A DNA stretch of 38,799 bases from Gammaproteobacteria bacterium. GTDB lineage: Bacteria; Pseudomonadota; Gammaproteobacteria; JAJPIJ01. The notes under the pieces are model-generated. The model was given only the letters and a program-made list of their open reading frames with translations, was not told where the DNA came from and ran no database searches. The position numbers and the translations under genes are program-made. Where the stretch lies: the NCBI GenBank assembly GCA_021324815.1, contig JAJPIJ010000027.1:1-38799 (forward strand), in the 5' to 3' direction. This document shows, one piece after another, positions 2,443-35,977 of this stretch; within the stretch, counting starts at the first letter, position 1; each line of letters opens with the position of its first letter.

Positions 2443-3522
2443 TCAGGCGCCGAGGGCCTTGAAGGCGGCGAGCAGCCGGTCGACGTCGGCGGCGGTGATT
2501 TCCCCCATGGTGGAGATGCGGAAGATCGACTGCGCGAGCCGGCCCTGCCCGGAGTAAATGACGAAACCGTGGCTCTTCAAATGATCGTGCAGCTTCTGAT
2601 AAGTCACGCCCTTCGGCAGAAGGTAGGCATTCAGCACCACGGATGACGCGCCCTCCGGCAGCAATGAATTGATGCCCAGTTTGATGAGTCCGTCACGTGT
2701 TTGTTTCGCCAATGCCGCGTATTTATCATGGCGCGCGCGCCAGCCGCCCTGTTCCTCGAATTCAGACAGCGCCTCGGCCAGCGCGTAGAAGCACTGCACC
2801 GACTGCGTGAACGGCGTGCCGCCGCGATCCTGCTCGCGGCAATACGTGCTCAAATCCAGATACAAGGTTCGCTTGCGCTCCTTGTCATCAGGCAGCGCGT
2901 CACGGCGGACGATGACGAAGGCCGCGCCCGGCACGCCGTGCAGGCACTTGTTGGCGGCGGCGGCGACGGCGGCGAGGTTCCATTCGTCGAAGCGCAGATC
3001 CTCGGCGCCGAAGCTGCTGACGCCGTCCACCAGCAGGCGGATGCCGCGCTCCGCGCACAATCGAGCAACCGGCGCCAGATCATTGAGCCGGCCGGTCGAG
3101 GTCTCATGGTGGACCACGGCGAGGCAGGAGACGGCCTCGTGTTCGTCGAGCGCGAGCTTGAGACGCTGCGTGTCGATCCGGCCGCCCCACTCGAACTTGA
3201 TCGGGATTGTCGGAATGCCGTGGATTTCCGCAATCTTCGACAGCCGCTCGCCGTAGGCGCCGTTCTCGATGACCAGGAGGCTCCCGTCTTCCGGCACCAG
3301 GCTTGCCACCATCGCCTCCATGGCCGCCGTGCCGGAGCCGGTCAGCAGCGCCACGGCATAACGCTTCGGATCGAGGCCGTAGACTTTCAGCAGCCGCTCG
3401 CGGATGTGGTTTTGCAGCCCGGCGAATTCCGGTTCGCGGTGGCAGAGATCGGGGCCGGTCAGCGCCTTGCGCACGCGCTCGCTCAATGTCACCGGCCCGG
3501 GATTGAGAAGGAGGGCGCGCAT
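2443..3522 (-). CDS. phnW: 2-aminoethylphosphonate:pyruvate aminotransferase
   Basis: This PLP enzyme of aminotransferase class V interconverts phosphonoacetaldehyde plus alanine and 2-aminoethylphosphonate (AEP) plus pyruvate. The 359-residue protein opens with LLNPGPVTLSERV, typical of PhnW. It has a GSGTAAMEAM cofactor loop, the DGVSSFGAED segment, and the PLP lysine Lys192 in AANKCLHGVPG. In degradative operons PhnW sits with phosphonatase (PhnX). Here no phnX is present, and the upstream genes make phosphonoacetaldehyde, so the direction is inferred to be biosynthetic (AEP formation). It is separated from the decarboxylase gene by about 147 bp containing a C/G-rich hairpin. Confidence 0.93.
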   Translation of the reverse strand: MRALLLNPGPVTLSERVRKALTGPDLCHREPEFAGLQNHIRERLLKVYGLDPKRYAVALLTGSGTAAMEAMVASLVPEDGSLLVIENGAYGERLSKIAEIHGIPTIPIKFEWGGRIDTQRLKLALDEHEAVSCLAVVHHETSTGRLNDLAPVARLCAERGIRLLVDGVSSFGAEDLRFDEWNLAAVAAAANKCLHGVPGAAFVIVRRDALPDDKERKRTLYLDLSTYCREQDRGGTPFTQSVQCFYALAEALSEFEEQGGWRARHDKYAALAKQTRDGLIKLGINSLLPEGASSVVLNAYLLPKGVTYQKLHDHLKSHGFVIYSGQGRLAQSIFRISTMGEITAADVDRLLAAFKALGA

Positions 3523-3574
3523 GGTGATGGCTTAGAGTGTCGCAAAACAGCGAATGCCCAAATCCCCCCCCCAC

Positions 3575-3595
3575 CCCCCCTTTGACAAAGGGGGG
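3575..3595. repeat. C/G-rich hairpin repeat between phnW and the decarboxylase gene
   Basis: Two 10-base arms (CCCCCCTTTG and CAAAGGGGGG) flank a single A. In practice this is a 9-bp stem with a 3-base loop, inside a longer cytosine-rich stretch (3563-3580). It resembles the short intergenic palindromes dispersed in many G+C-rich proteobacterial genomes. Lying inside a co-directional gene set, it could lower transcription or alter mRNA decay between the decarboxylase and phnW. It has no U-tract of its own on the minus strand, so it is not a textbook terminator. Confidence 0.6.
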
Positions 3596-3669
3596 ACGAG
3601 CGGGGATTGCCACTGGCGGCGGCAAATGAGGCGTTCAACCATTTTTTGAAATCCTCGGCAAGTCATGCA

Positions 3670-4821
3670 TCAAAATTTCGCGCCGATGTGGGCCATCAAC
3701 CGGCGCAATACTTCCGGCGGCGCCAATTTGGGGCGCGGCAGATCGGCGATGGTGCCGGTCCTGATCTTCAAATGCGCAAACTTCGGCCCGTCGGCGGTCC
3801 CGTTCAACAGCGCGTCGACGACGGCGGGTCTGTCGCCGGCGAGGCACAGCGCGTAACCGCACGCCTGCGCGATGCGGGCGAAGGAAACGCCCGCCGTCAC
3901 CGTGGCCTGCGCGCCGGTGGAATCGTGGGCCTCGTTGTCGAGCACGAGATGATAAAGGTTCGACGGCCCGTAGGCGCCCAGCGTGGCGAAGTTGCCCATG
4001 CGCATGAGCGCCGCGCCGTCGCCGTCCACCACCACCACCTTCAAGTCCGGCCGCGCCAGCGCGAGCCCCAGCCCGAAGGCGGAGGCGCAGCCCATCGATC
4101 CCACCATGTAAAAATGATTTTTGCGATCGGCCAGCGCATAGAGTTCGCGCCCCGTGTAGCCGGTGGTGGCGATGACCACGGTGCCGGCCTCCGGTGTCAG
4201 TTCGATCAGCCGTCGCAACACTTCATTGCGACTGGGACGCCGATCCACATTGCTGCTGTAGACCTCCTGCACACGCGCCTCGCGCCGCGGCAATCCAAGC
4301 GATTTTTTCCTGAGTTCGTGCCCGGCGACCGTGTTTTTTTCCATGATGAACGCGTAAGGGCGCTGCTCGCCGTCGAGATATTCCCGTGCCCGCGCCAGCG
4401 CGGGCCGGATGTCCCCTGCCTCCGCGGGAAACGGCTCCCACGGCACGCGCAGGGTGGCGAGGAGCTCGCCGGTGATCCGGCCCATCAACTCGTGCTGCGG
4501 CTCGTCCGCAACGCCCGGCGCGCCGCGGTGCGTGCAAATCAAGAGCAGCGGTATGCGGAAGACGTGGGTCAGCGAGGTCAGCGGGCTCACGGCGTTGCCG
4601 AGGCCCGAGTTCTGCATCATCACCACGGCGCGTTCGCCGCCGATGGCGCCGCCCGCGGCCGTGGCCAGGGCGTCGCCCTCGTTGGCGGAGGAGATGTAGC
4701 GCAGGCGATCGTCGTTGATGACGTAATTGATGAAGGGCGTCAGGAATGAGCAGGGCACGCCGGCCCAGGTCCGGCACCCCAGCGCGCGCGCCGCCTCGAC
4801 GAATTCCCCGGCCTTTATCAT
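3670..4821 (-). CDS. ppd: Phosphonopyruvate decarboxylase
   Basis: This thiamine-diphosphate enzyme decarboxylates phosphonopyruvate to phosphonoacetaldehyde, the step that drives the unfavourable PEP mutase equilibrium forward. The protein shows the N-terminal CSFLTPFIN and NEGDALATAAGG (conserved Glu for cofactor activation) segments. Near the middle of the C-terminal domain it has GDGAALMRMGN, the TPP/Mg-binding motif, followed by NEAHDSTGAQ, characteristic of this family (also called AepY/Fom2-like). The start chosen is the internal ATG giving MIKAGEFVEAARALG, which matches usual family N-termini and lies 19 bp after the PEP mutase stop. An upstream ATG at 4872 would overlap the mutase gene and adds 17 atypical residues. 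Confidence 0.93.
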   Translation of the reverse strand: MIKAGEFVEAARALGCRTWAGVPCSFLTPFINYVINDDRLRYISSANEGDALATAAGGAIGGERAVVMMQNSGLGNAVSPLTSLTHVFRIPLLLICTHRGAPGVADEPQHELMGRITGELLATLRVPWEPFPAEAGDIRPALARAREYLDGEQRPYAFIMEKNTVAGHELRKKSLGLPRREARVQEVYSSNVDRRPSRNEVLRRLIELTPEAGTVVIATTGYTGRELYALADRKNHFYMVGSMGCASAFGLGLALARPDLKVVVVDGDGAALMRMGNFATLGAYGPSNLYHLVLDNEAHDSTGAQATVTAGVSFARIAQACGYALCLAGDRPAVVDALLNGTADGPKFAHLKIRTGTIADLPRPKLAPPEVLRRLMAHIGAKF

Positions 4822-32167: not shown

Positions 32168-33073
32168 TCAGGGCGGGCCGGACTTGACCCAGATCTCCAT
32201 GATCGGCGCGGCGGCGCGCGAATTTCCAAGGTGGTCGAGGCCGTACATGTCGAGCAGGGTCCGCAGGACGCCGTAGTGGTCGACGCGGGAGTCATATTTT
32301 CCGGGCCGGACCATGGGGCCGACGAACAGGGTGGCGATGTGATTGCCGCTCGATCCGTCGTCCTCGTCCCAGGTGACAATGAGCAGGCTGTTGTGTGATG
32401 ACGCCCATTGCACGTAGGCGTCGAGATGTTCCCTGAGCCAGCGGTCGCCCTGAATGATCGTCGCCGGCGGATCGCCGTCGTGCATGTCGTTGAGCTGGTT
32501 CGGCACCACCAGCGAAATCGTGGGGAGCCTGGAATAGTCGGCGGGGAAGGCGTCGAGAGGCAGGTTCATGTCCGCCGTCACGCTGTTACCCTGCCAGTTC
32601 ACCGCCGGATTGTGCTTGCGCCTGTAATGATTGTGCCCGCAGCCGGTGTAGCCGGCCGCGGGCATGGATTCGGAATACGTCGCGAAGGTCAGTCCCTTGC
32701 GCCGCAATTCGCCGGCGAGATTGCCGCCCTGAAACGCATAGGGGCAGTGATCGTCGGTCACGCCCTGCGTGTCGCCGGAGAACAGCGCCAGGTAATTGGG
32801 CTGGCTCGGGTGCCGGATCGCATACGAGCGGGTGAGCAGCGCGCCGTTTTGAGCGAGTTGATGGATGTACGGCGTGACGGCGGGATCGCTCATGATCTGG
32901 TGATAGGACTTGTTTTCCTCGATCACAATCACCACGTGGTCGGGCCGCGGAATTCTTTCCATCGCGGCGCCGGCGGCGAGGGTTGCGCCGCCCGCCCCCG
33001 CCCATGTCAGCATGGAAAGTGCGAGCCAGCCGGCGATTGCGCCTCCAGTCGCGCGAGTGGCGGGGAAAGTCAT
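32168..33073 (-). CDS. Secreted phosphoesterase (acid phosphatase/phospholipase C-like)
   Basis: About 301 residues with an N-terminal signal-like helix (GAIAGWLALSMLTWAGAGGAT). The domain of the phosphoesterase family that includes AcpA-type acid phosphatases and non-hemolytic phospholipase C is recognisable by HVVIVIEENKSYHQIM, HPSQPNYLALFSGDTQG, VPNQLNDMHD and VTWDEDDG, with several putative metal ligands (Glu/Asn early, Asp and His late). It probably cleaves phosphate esters in the periplasm; the substrate is unknown. The ATG start overlaps the protease stop (TGATG); a GTG one codon upstream (33076) is also possible. It is the last gene of a three-gene operon. Confidence 0.83.
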   Translation of the reverse strand: MTFPATRATGGAIAGWLALSMLTWAGAGGATLAAGAAMERIPRPDHVVIVIEENKSYHQIMSDPAVTPYIHQLAQNGALLTRSYAIRHPSQPNYLALFSGDTQGVTDDHCPYAFQGGNLAGELRRKGLTFATYSESMPAAGYTGCGHNHYRRKHNPAVNWQGNSVTADMNLPLDAFPADYSRLPTISLVVPNQLNDMHDGDPPATIIQGDRWLREHLDAYVQWASSHNSLLIVTWDEDDGSSGNHIATLFVGPMVRPGKYDSRVDHYGVLRTLLDMYGLDHLGNSRAAAPIMEIWVKSGPP

Positions 33074-33861
33074 CACCGCCGCCGTCCGGGTTGGTTGTCA
33101 GCTTTCACGCAAATCTTCTTCACAAGTTCCCAGTCCTTCTTATCCATGATCGGTTCGATGGGATGATCCCGGTAGCGCTGCGCCAGCTGCGCGCGGTCAT
33201 CATTGTCGGGATGATCCGAGAGAATCGCGGGGACGGAAGACATGTTTTTCGCCCGCTCGAAAAAGTGCTGGAAGCCGGCCACGTCGACGCGGGCGTCCTG
33301 CAGTCGCCTCAGACCGCCCTCGTCAGCCTCGCGTTCCTGTTCGCGGCTGAATTGCAGATTCAGCAGCGCGCTTGCGGTTTCGGGATTTATCGCTCCTCCG
33401 CCCGAAAGCGCCAGCTTCAGGCCCTCCACGGTCACCAGGCGCACGATCACGCCCTGAATGATGTGGCGCTGGCGCACGTGCTCTATTTCATGCGCCAGCA
33501 CGCCGGCGAGTTCCTCGGCCGTTTCCGCCTGCTTGATCAACCCGTCGAACACGTAGATGTGGCCGCCCAGGGAGGCAAAGGCGTTGACCGTGGATCCCTC
33601 CACGGGTTCCACGGTGACGGGGAAGGTGTGATCGTCGGGATAGATGGGATATATCCTTGCCACGATTTTTTTGAACAACGCCGCGGCCTCGGGCCGCGTG
33701 GCGCAAACGCGCTCCCCGGCGCCCGCCCCGCCCAAGAGACGGGCTGCGCGCTGTTCAATGGACCACGGCACGTGCCTGGCGAAATAGGGGAGGCCGTATG
33801 CCGCCACCACTCCCACCAGAATGGCGGTCACCAGCCATGCCAGACCCTTGAGTTTTGCCAA
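33073..33861 (-). CDS. M48-family metalloprotease
   Basis: A 262-residue zinc protease with an N-terminal membrane helix (about 6-24) that would anchor it facing the periplasm. The zinc motif HEIEH (His124, Glu125, His128) sits in LAGVLAHEIEHVRQRH, and the third ligand Glu178 in REQEREADEGGLRRL. The order and spacing match the M48/BepA-HtpX-like group. It lacks TPR repeats. Its gene starts 11 bp after the YbjQ-repeat gene stop and overlaps the phosphoesterase start, so the three act as one transcription unit. The client protein is unknown. Confidence 0.9.
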   Translation of the reverse strand: MAKLKGLAWLVTAILVGVVAAYGLPYFARHVPWSIEQRAARLLGGAGAGERVCATRPEAAALFKKIVARIYPIYPDDHTFPVTVEPVEGSTVNAFASLGGHIYVFDGLIKQAETAEELAGVLAHEIEHVRQRHIIQGVIVRLVTVEGLKLALSGGGAINPETASALLNLQFSREQEREADEGGLRRLQDARVDVAGFQHFFERAKNMSSVPAILSDHPDNDDRAQLAQRYRDHPIEPIMDKKDWELVKKICVKADNQPGRRR

Positions 33862-33872
33862 AGGAGGGGCGA

Positions 33873-35111
33873 TCAGTGATGTGACAGGATGCGCAGCAGG
33901 TAGAAGATGAAGATAATCACGGCGATGACAATGGCCACGGGCCCCTGCTGCAGGCGCCGCGCGGAGGCCGCGCCGCCGCGGCGCAGATCGAGGGTGTCGG
34001 CGACGTTGGTGGTGTCCACGAAGGTTTCGCGATCCTGGATGATGGCCTGCGGCGGAAGAAGGCCCGTCTTCGTCGTGACGCCCGGAAATTTTTTCACCGC
34101 CGTCCCGATGGCCATGAACTCGACCAGCCCGCCGCCCAGATCATATACCCGGGTCTTGACCCCGACGACTTCGTCGGCGCCGCATGCCTCGGCCTCACGC
34201 TCGATGCGGGCGAGGGCTTTTTCACGGGCCTCGTAAAGCAGTTCCGTGAGGCCGCTGACCTCGCCGCCCATCAGGCTTTTCAAGGCCGCCAGCAGTCCTC
34301 CCGCCAGTCCCAGCGAATACACGGACACCCCCATCAGCAGTTTTATCGGAAGGTAGCCCAGGTTGACCATGTTCCACATCTCCTCGTTGGTCATGTCGCT
34401 GGTGACGGGATTGTTTTTGTAGGCCTCGAGCGCCGGATGGCGGGAGGCGGTTCCCACCATGATCATTTCCTGGCTGCCCAGCAGCGGCGAGATGGTGGTC
34501 TGGATGCCGATGATGGCGTTGGCGCCGTGCTTCTTCGCCTCGTCGGTGATGCGGGTCAGCGCCAGGTGCCGCGTCTGATCGAAGATCTCAGTGTATTGCG
34601 GGATTTCGCCGCGGCGCAATCCCCGCAGCGCCCCGCTGATGTTGCCGCCCAGGCCGATGGAGTAGGCGACGTTTCCAAAGACGAAATGGAGGGGCTCGAA
34701 GCCGGCGTCCATCTGGCAATACAACTGCTGGACATCCGCGGAGGTCGAGAACTTGAATGCATCCACGCCGTCCGCCTTGTGAACGGTGGAGCCGATGGTG
34801 AGGAACTCGAGGTTGCCGCCGTGATTGATGAGATCGAAGGAAACGCCGGTGACGCCGACGCCCTTGTGCTGTCGCACTTCGCTGATTAAACGGTCGAAGG
34901 AGTTCATGCGGGAGTCGTGGACCAGCTTGGTGACCTCGGTCACCTCGCCGCCGCCCAGCGTCGACAATCCCGCGCCGATCCCCCTAGCGACGCCCAGCGC
35001 AACGACGCTGTTCCCGACACAAAGCTGCCCCGCGCGCAGTCCCAGCTTGCTCAGGCAGTAGATTTCGTTCCCCGAAAGCCCCGTGACCCGTTTGTGACCA
35101 AAAGTATTCAT
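33873..35111 (-). CDS. Triple YbjQ-domain protein with C-terminal membrane anchor
   Basis: A 412-residue protein built from three copies of the YbjQ/UPF0145 (heavy-metal-binding-like) domain: about residues 35-112, 146-222 and 262-340. Each copy has a GE-(V/I)-x5-(K/I/L) helix start, a run such as ARIEREAEACGADEVVGV, and a closing strand ending in (I/M)xxGTA or GST. Residues 391-408 are a hydrophobic helix at the very end, so it is probably tail-anchored, with the domains in the cytosol or periplasm depending on topology. Single YbjQ domains form pentameric rings; the function is unknown. A strong GGAGG site precedes the ATG. It heads the operon with the M48 protease and phosphoesterase. Confidence 0.85.
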   Translation of the reverse strand: MNTFGHKRVTGLSGNEIYCLSKLGLRAGQLCVGNSVVALGVARGIGAGLSTLGGGEVTEVTKLVHDSRMNSFDRLISEVRQHKGVGVTGVSFDLINHGGNLEFLTIGSTVHKADGVDAFKFSTSADVQQLYCQMDAGFEPLHFVFGNVAYSIGLGGNISGALRGLRRGEIPQYTEIFDQTRHLALTRITDEAKKHGANAIIGIQTTISPLLGSQEMIMVGTASRHPALEAYKNNPVTSDMTNEEMWNMVNLGYLPIKLLMGVSVYSLGLAGGLLAALKSLMGGEVSGLTELLYEAREKALARIEREAEACGADEVVGVKTRVYDLGGGLVEFMAIGTAVKKFPGVTTKTGLLPPQAIIQDRETFVDTTNVADTLDLRRGGAASARRLQQGPVAIVIAVIIFIFYLLRILSHH

Positions 35112-35188: not shown

Positions 35189-35977
35189 TTATTTGGACAC
35201 GAGCTTCCACTTCTTGAGCATGGCGTCCAGTCGGCCGGATTTCTTGAGATCGGCGATCACCTCGTTGACGATTTTCAACAGATCGGCGTTGCCCTTGCGG
35301 ACCGCTACCGCGAAGCGTTTGTGCGAAAGCAGCGGCGAGCGCTTGAGATCGGCGTGCCCGTCGGCGATGTAGGCATCGAGATTGGCGCTCTCGGAGACCA
35401 ACGCGTCGGCGCTGCCGGATTCGACGGCGTCGATCCCTTCCTGAAAGGCGGGCACGCGCTCGATTTCGATTCTGGCGTCGTGTACCGCGGCCAGCCGTTG
35501 CAGCTCGCCGGCCGGATCATTCATCTTCTCGTCCAGGGCCACGACCTTCATGCCGTTCAGATCGGCGAGTTTCTGGACGGTGGATTTCCCCTTCTGCACC
35601 ACCGCCAGCCCGCCTTCGAAGTAGGGCTCGGAAAAATCCACGAGGGCCTGATCCTCCTCGTTTATCGAGAACATCGAGATGCCGAGATCGACCGTGCCAT
35701 CCGCCACGGCCGGCAGGCGCTGACGGCGCTTGAACGTCTCAAATTTCGCCTTGGTTTCATCGCCTAGGATGCGTTGGGTGATCGCGCGGGCCAGATCCAG
35801 TTCGAAACCGCGTTTCTGGAAGTGCGCCGGATCATTGTGCTCCGCGCGGTTGAGCGAGCCCTCGTTCTTGACCGCGACCCGCAGCACGCCGCGGGCGAGA
35901 ATATCGTCAAGCGCGCCGCCGTGGGCGACGACCGGCAGCAAACACATCACCGGCAGCAGGAGAGCGGTGATTTTCAT
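35189..35977 (-). CDS. Periplasmic solute-binding protein, family 3
   Basis: A 262-residue extracytoplasmic binding protein with a clear signal peptide (MKITALLLPVMCLLPVVAHG). The mature start DDILARGVLRVAVKNEGS is followed by ELDLARAITQRILGD, DLGISMFSINEEDQALVDFS, and later SGSADALVSESANLDAYI, the pattern of amino-acid-type SBP_bac_3 proteins. No ABC permease or ATPase is adjacent, so it is an orphan: either it feeds a distant transporter or it acts as a sensor subunit. Ligand unknown. Confidence 0.88.
   Translation of the reverse strand: MKITALLLPVMCLLPVVAHGGALDDILARGVLRVAVKNEGSLNRAEHNDPAHFQKRGFELDLARAITQRILGDETKAKFETFKRRQRLPAVADGTVDLGISMFSINEEDQALVDFSEPYFEGGLAVVQKGKSTVQKLADLNGMKVVALDEKMNDPAGELQRLAAVHDARIEIERVPAFQEGIDAVESGSADALVSESANLDAYIADGHADLKRSPLLSHKRFAVAVRKGNADLLKIVNEVIADLKKSGRLDAMLKKWKLVSK

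Follow-up and report, generated by a model that had tools for sequence, protein, structure and literature searches.

The stretch of DNA analysed here (38,799 nucleotides from a gammaproteobacterial draft genome of 2.37 Mb in 54 contigs; hereafter the window, meaning the whole stretch) carries a gene for a protein with three YbjQ domains and a C-terminal membrane helix (triple-YbjQ), followed by a gene for an M48 zinc metalloprotease. This pair is a conserved two-protein module, the genes of which are coupled and co-occur across phyla. The YbjQ protein and M48 very probably work together, perhaps with a joint role in looking after membrane proteins, and we see about an even chance that membrane-tethered cytoplasmic YbjQ assemblies organise or regulate the dedicated membrane M48 in the style of a scaffold and its protease. 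Structures have been solved for YbjQ (UPF0145), a widespread family for which no function was found in the open literature; the conserved link to a dedicated M48 gives the family its first testable role. The features of the pair are as follows (aa, amino acids).

33873..35111, minus strand: triple-YbjQ protein, 412 aa, with a C-terminal membrane helix (ORF, open reading frame; three PF01906 stretches; model)
34794..35024, minus strand: YbjQ domain 1 (PF01906, 31.5 bits)
34446..34691, minus strand: YbjQ domain 2 (PF01906, 57 bits)
34092..34340, minus strand: YbjQ domain 3 (PF01906, 66.5 bits)
33879..33959, minus strand: C-terminal membrane helix, residues 385-411 of triple-YbjQ (model, hydropathy)
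33073..33861, minus strand: M48 zinc metalloprotease, 262 aa, TTG start, single N-terminal membrane helix (PF01435, model)
33703..33705, minus strand: Cys53 of M48, candidate disulfide partner of Cys251 (conservation, model)
33478..33492, minus strand: HExxH zinc motif, M48 residues 124-128 (invariant in 15/15 rows)
33334-33336, minus strand: E176 of M48, candidate third ligand (invariant in 15/15 rows)
33109-33111, minus strand: Cys251 of M48, candidate disulfide partner of Cys53 (conservation, model)

The earlier note on this DNA had described three genes joined by an 11-nucleotide gap and a TGATG overlap, and this layout holds on the minus strand: the ORFs, the Pfam families and the spacing are all present (11 nucleotides between triple-YbjQ and M48; TGATG between M48 and the phosphoesterase gene after it). 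Its three tandem YbjQ domains with a tail anchor were recovered as three PF01906 stretches and a helix at residues 385-411 of the model, and its membrane-bound zinc protease as a PF01435 protein with a modelled N-terminal helix.

Among 84,980 species genomes scanned, 180 relatives of triple-YbjQ were found; the best 80 were kept as loci, each with up to 8 kb of flank. An M48 homolog was located directly downstream on the same strand at 14 of these 80 loci, often overlapping the YbjQ stop codon. The paired loci belong to Bdellovibrionota, Omnitrophota, Alpha- and Betaproteobacteria, and a Geobacter-labelled metagenome-assembled genome (MAG); the genomes with the pair are nearly all MAGs, so that the taxon names are provisional. 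All 14 are among the 15 loci closest to the window, the exception being L024. The identity to the window drops to 60% for the linked YbjQ and 34% for M48, with the order and the close spacing kept. Locus L030 ends inside the gene at a contig end, and the M48 gene of L029 is cut by a contig end. Triple-YbjQ itself is rare (3 of the 369 genomes of the window's class; 5 of 211 and 2 of 209 in two other phyla).

The search with the M48-subfamily profile covered 42 of the 80 triple-YbjQ genomes. Full-length matches (289-382 bits) were found once in each of the 14 paired genomes, always at the pair, and the remaining M48 proteins of the 42 genomes reached 124.5 bits at most; the profile was built from the YbjQ-paired rows, so that this gap in score is partly by construction. 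Searches started from M48 are somewhat more independent of this. In them, the window alone exceeded 200 bits among the 369 class genomes. The phylum of L017, with 290 genomes searched, yielded six M48 proteins of at least 289 bits, all beside triple-YbjQ; these six were already in the profile, and neither a new member nor an orphan was found. Four further M48 proteins of the same 290 genomes (209-220 bits) were all beside DUF898 genes.

The triple-YbjQ tree was reconstructed from 66 proteins (L030 and L054 were excluded from the alignments, and near-identical rows from the tree). All 15 M48-linked proteins fell in one 20-row clade (support 100/99), of which the other five rows were four Geobacteraceae and L024. 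Phyla are intermixed inside this clade, which suggests that the pair was transferred between lineages, with some losses. A tail helix was present in 15/15 M48-linked triple-YbjQ proteins versus 34/64 unlinked ones.

The pairing was also found in a commoner form, with YbjQ domains on separate genes. PF01906 was present in 76 of the 369 class genomes, and 80 PF01906 sites of the window's class, all outside the window, were sorted by automatic rules into 33 with two consecutive small YbjQ genes (tandem sites), 37 with a lone small YbjQ gene and 10 others. The earlier note's statement that YbjQ domains normally occur singly is thus right in part: it fits the 37 lone small ORFs, but not the 33 tandems and the 10 sites of other kinds. 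An M48 gene follows 32 of the 33 tandem sites, all except L235, versus near one of the 37 lone sites (Fisher p 1.2e-17, the genomes being related). That one lone site, L211, is really a tandem variant, since the gene between carries a YbjQ domain, and the automatic count was kept; the gene is a 458-aa frame (3184-4557) with a C-terminal YbjQ domain, sitting between the YbjQ gene and the M48 gene. Pfam confirms the families of the separate-gene operon (YbjQ, a YbjQ with a membrane helix, M48) at L194. The M48 of L226 is partly unreadable (masked or gap); it was counted as present at 45.5 bits and excluded from the tree and the consensus. The association of multiple YbjQ domains with M48 proposed from the window therefore recurs beyond close relatives, in several phyla for the fused form and at nearly all tandem sites for the separate one.

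Other YbjQ arrangements were seen in the same survey. At L206 (2016-3757), L225 (2042-3843) and L239 (1834-3692), there are two overlapping consecutive genes of approximately 305-346 aa, with no M48 nearby, and most of these genes hold two YbjQ domains, which is another multi-YbjQ arrangement. At L183 (3343-4119) and L216 (3376-3876), a YbjQ-type domain is combined with an N-terminal part that may be a zinc ribbon or cysteine-rich; in L183, the match to a zinc ribbon is below the cut-off.

When the catalytic domains of M48 were placed in a tree, the triple-linked and operon-linked proteins formed two separate starred clades. One joint M48 clade was not rejected by the approximately unbiased (AU) test (p 0.378), which was run without Y2_L211 and three divergent rows from the window's own genome; given this value, we do not claim that the two YbjQ forms recruited M48 independently. 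The fused YbjQ domains gave medians of 39-55 bits against the lone-YbjQ profile versus 27-40 bits against either operon profile; being nearer to lone YbjQ, they do not fit the triple protein as a simple fusion of the two operon YbjQ genes. Because there are two M48 clades and the fused domains are nearer to lone YbjQ, it is likely, as judged from these sequence comparisons, that two separate YbjQ-M48 pairings arose. These data bear on the idea that the pair is hitch-hiking, i.e., inherited or transferred jointly without functional interaction. All linked triple-YbjQ proteins fall in a single clade, so that the adjacency may have had a single origin, with later spread by transfer; we consider this reading improbable, however, because the order and spacing persist down to the lowest identities given above, and because the separate-gene arrangement exists, with its M48 in a starred clade of its own.

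As for the YbjQ protein, PF01906 was assigned at 145.5 bits (E 9.4e-43) in three stretches, the cut-off being 23 bits. The monomer model, based on a 67-row alignment, had a mean pLDDT (predicted local distance difference test) of 84.4 and a pTM (predicted template modelling score) of 0.82; the linker ahead of the tail helix (residues 370-389) was weakly predicted. The tail helix has a hydropathy of 2.82, with 4 K/R (Lys or Arg) before and 0 after, and is preceded by a conserved ASARxxQxGP-like stretch (comparison of the tails of relatives). The solved structures akin by sequence are the YbjQ entries 1y2i, 2gtc and 1vr4, and the third YbjQ domain aligns with 1y2i and 1vr4. By fold comparison, RcsF, dodecin and YbjQ entries were obtained at Z 5-7, below the trust level recommended by the tool; a fold common to YbjQ, RcsF and DUF1471 is described in PMC4092069. 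The Francisella protein 4qvr matched over two domains of triple-YbjQ at Z 6.0, also below that level. No match of PF01145 (Band_7) in triple-YbjQ was found at E 1. Single-domain YbjQ crystals are described as pentamers, one of them with subunits in different folds (PMC2954204); the earlier note's statement that YbjQ domains form rings has this basis for single-domain proteins, which does not include the triple protein. No relative was found in a scan of viral contigs, and a plasmid scan gave only partial matches, in 6 records, with the query covered to less than 80% in every one.

The Pfam name of PF01906 is 'putative heavy-metal-binding', and the partner is a zinc enzyme; the YbjQ domains might then bind metal, either sensing it or supplying the protease. 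We see only a slim chance of this. Among Cys and His in 67 triple-YbjQ sequences, only C19 and H182 are conserved at 90% or more, and they are in different domains; acidic positions alone repeat across the YbjQ domains, and no Cys/His set does. Conservation thus gave no convincing metal-binding site. Furthermore, M48 is the sole close-neighbour cluster that recurs across phyla, though most clusters there are unannotated.

As for the M48 protein, PF01435 was assigned at 87.7 bits (cut-off 20.3), and H124, E125, H128, E176 and D180 were invariant in 15/15 rows. The model (15 rows) had a pLDDT of 84.7, with residues 2-30 as the N-terminal helix, and its closest folds in the PDB were 3c37 and then BepA (6ait). 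The closest NCBIfam model was that of BepA (NF052400), at 83.2 bits against a cut-off of 570; LoiP (NF052399) gave 53.2 bits against 365, and the HtpX models at most 25.4 bits against 245-422, so that all scores were below the cut-offs. Cys53 and Cys251 were each conserved in at least 90% of the 15 rows, and short bridge-type strands are located beside them in the model (near residues 52 and 251). Taken with these strands, the conserved cysteine pair points to a disulfide bond, which would place the catalytic domain in the periplasm. As for YbjQ, the second YbjQ of the tandem sites bears a membrane helix at its N-terminus, flanked by positive charges on the C-terminal side of the helix, so that the YbjQ domain would be cytoplasmic; the charge bias around the tail helix of triple-YbjQ in the M48 clade also points to cytoplasmic YbjQ domains. 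The operon M48 proteins have a conserved PEGINxSxxHPLKEF-like stretch ahead of the membrane helix (PEGIN-like pattern in 23/32).

On the scaffold-protease reading, the YbjQ domains would form an assembly at the inner membrane, on its cytoplasmic side, much as single YbjQ domains form pentamers, and the resulting platform would gather M48 by way of the membrane helices and of the protease's short cytoplasmic tail. Such gathering may localise or gate the cleavage of membrane or envelope proteins on the periplasmic side. The assembly, the interaction, the side of the membrane on which M48 acts and the purpose are what we infer here, and the earlier note's 'membrane scaffold and quality control' would be compatible with them. 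The main rival to this reading holds that M48 cleaves its YbjQ partner in the tail or the linkers, thereby releasing or dismantling the assembly. The same adjacency data would be expected from it, the weakly predicted linker could be the cleavage site, and 1510-N, a protease that is an operon partner of stomatin, is described as specific for it (PMC3795559). We nevertheless consider cleavage of the partner unlikely, since with a periplasmic catalytic domain, as the cysteine pair suggests, the YbjQ domains and the linker would lie across the membrane.

Several observations weigh against the scaffold-protease reading. At 66 of the 80 triple-YbjQ loci no such M48 is adjacent (the contig-cut L030 among them), and the genomes of Geobacter L031-L034 and L024, which are inside the M48-linked clade, are without the M48 subfamily; triple-YbjQ can therefore act without M48. 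The PEGIN motif was found in 0/15 triple-linked M48 proteins. Three domains per chain give no simple fit to a five-membered ring. The charges around the M48 helix are ambiguous for topology (33 K/R before and 45 after in the triple-linked set). Finally, the adjacency counts are of related genomes and not of independent events.

The next-best relatives of the window's M48 (127-220 bits) were beside DUF898 in 12 of 20 loci (L128-L136, L106-L108) and beside AIM24 in 8 of 20 (L109-L112, L114-L117). A companion gene is thus the rule among the M48 relatives examined, which suggests that in this M48 branch pairing with a companion protein is routine, be it YbjQ, DUF898 or AIM24. No paper on DUF898 or AIM24 together with M48 was found in the open PMC literature. 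In Collimonas, the triple-YbjQ protein is tail-less, and an SPFH/Band_7 gene comes directly after it at 6/6 loci (L066, L075, L076, L079, L085, L094; that of L085 is a fragment). A broader proposal would take YbjQ as the core of a class of SPFH-independent membrane platforms. Cytoplasmic YbjQ assemblies, tied to the membrane by a helix that is either fused or encoded separately, would hold a dedicated M48 (an SPFH protein in the case of Collimonas) and control proteolysis in the envelope; they would be built as either a triple-domain fusion or a three-gene operon. Taken jointly, this is possible but doubtful; if true, it would be the first function for a widespread uncharacterised family.

The genes next to the pair in the window are as follows.

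32168..33076, minus strand: PF04185 phosphoesterase, 301-302 aa (start 33076/33073), hydrophobic N-terminus (Pfam)
35189..35977, minus strand: solute-binding protein PF00497, upstream neighbour (Pfam; 77-nucleotide gap to triple-YbjQ)

The phosphoesterase (PF04185, 143.3 bits) shares the transcription unit with YbjQ and M48 in the window genome and is outside the conserved module. A three-gene secretion or phosphate unit, in which the phosphoesterase would be the effector and the others would serve its export or processing, agrees with the TGATG overlap and with the finding that, by consensus matches only, there is no terminator-like site on the minus strand between the three genes. It is very improbable and largely refuted: no phosphoesterase relative was found within the flanks of the 80 triple-YbjQ loci at E 1e-3, and the sister species G001 lacks the triple-YbjQ gene, its 74%-identical phosphoesterase gene being located approximately 5 kb from rplM without YbjQ or M48 as a neighbour. 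On these two results, the three-gene unit that the earlier note had drawn from the layout is not supported as a conserved one, and the phosphoesterase would be a passenger in the window genome. Downstream of the three genes are rplM and rpsI. The nearest upstream minus-strand promoter-like site (consensus matches only) precedes the solute-binding-protein gene, so that the transcript may start one gene earlier, and the solute-binding protein is possibly co-transcribed with the three genes; just two weak matches to it were found near the 80 loci, and no conserved link was seen. At four cyanobacterial loci (L042, L046, L054, L062), one gene cluster recurs two or three genes before triple-YbjQ; in L042 it is an inward-rectifier potassium channel (PF17655/PF01007).

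The YbjQ and M48 families are both known, and their conserved pairing in two architectures appears undescribed within the open literature: no paper on YbjQ with M48, or with the NCBI-style names of both, was found in open PMC, outside which subscription papers and preprints lie. Each of the three domains is a member of YbjQ/UPF0145/DUF74 (PF01906; PDB 1y2i, 1vr4); the known structures are single-domain pentamers, whereas the window protein has three domains, a membrane helix and a protease partner. C2CD5, a eukaryotic C2 protein, has a YbjQ-like domain (PF23025, YbjQ_2), to which triple-YbjQ gave a weak sub-threshold match (17.3 bits against a cut-off of 29.1); no membership is claimed, and no paper on YbjQ with C2CD5 was found in the open PMC literature. 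BepA, LoiP and HtpX are like the window's M48 in the M48 fold and HExxH. The window's M48, however, has 262 aa with an N-terminal membrane helix, compared with 483 positions in the BepA model, and, unlike these three, its subfamily forms its own clade and occurs only beside triple-YbjQ in the genomes searched. The M48 proteins beside DUF898 or AIM24 are like it in having an adjacent companion gene, but the companion differs; one representative tested from these loci had a weak, sub-threshold N-terminal match to DUF7092. HflKC-FtsH consists of an SPFH scaffold and a membrane protease, FtsH being an AAA protease. Together with stomatin/1510-N, it resembles the proposed module in the manner of working only, namely, in that an oligomeric scaffold in the membrane is bound to a membrane protease or encoded together with it. 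The stomatin and HflKC scaffolds are SPFH proteins, whereas YbjQ is not an SPFH domain, and the window's M48 is a zinc protease, whereas 1510-N is described as forming an acyl-enzyme (PMC3795559).

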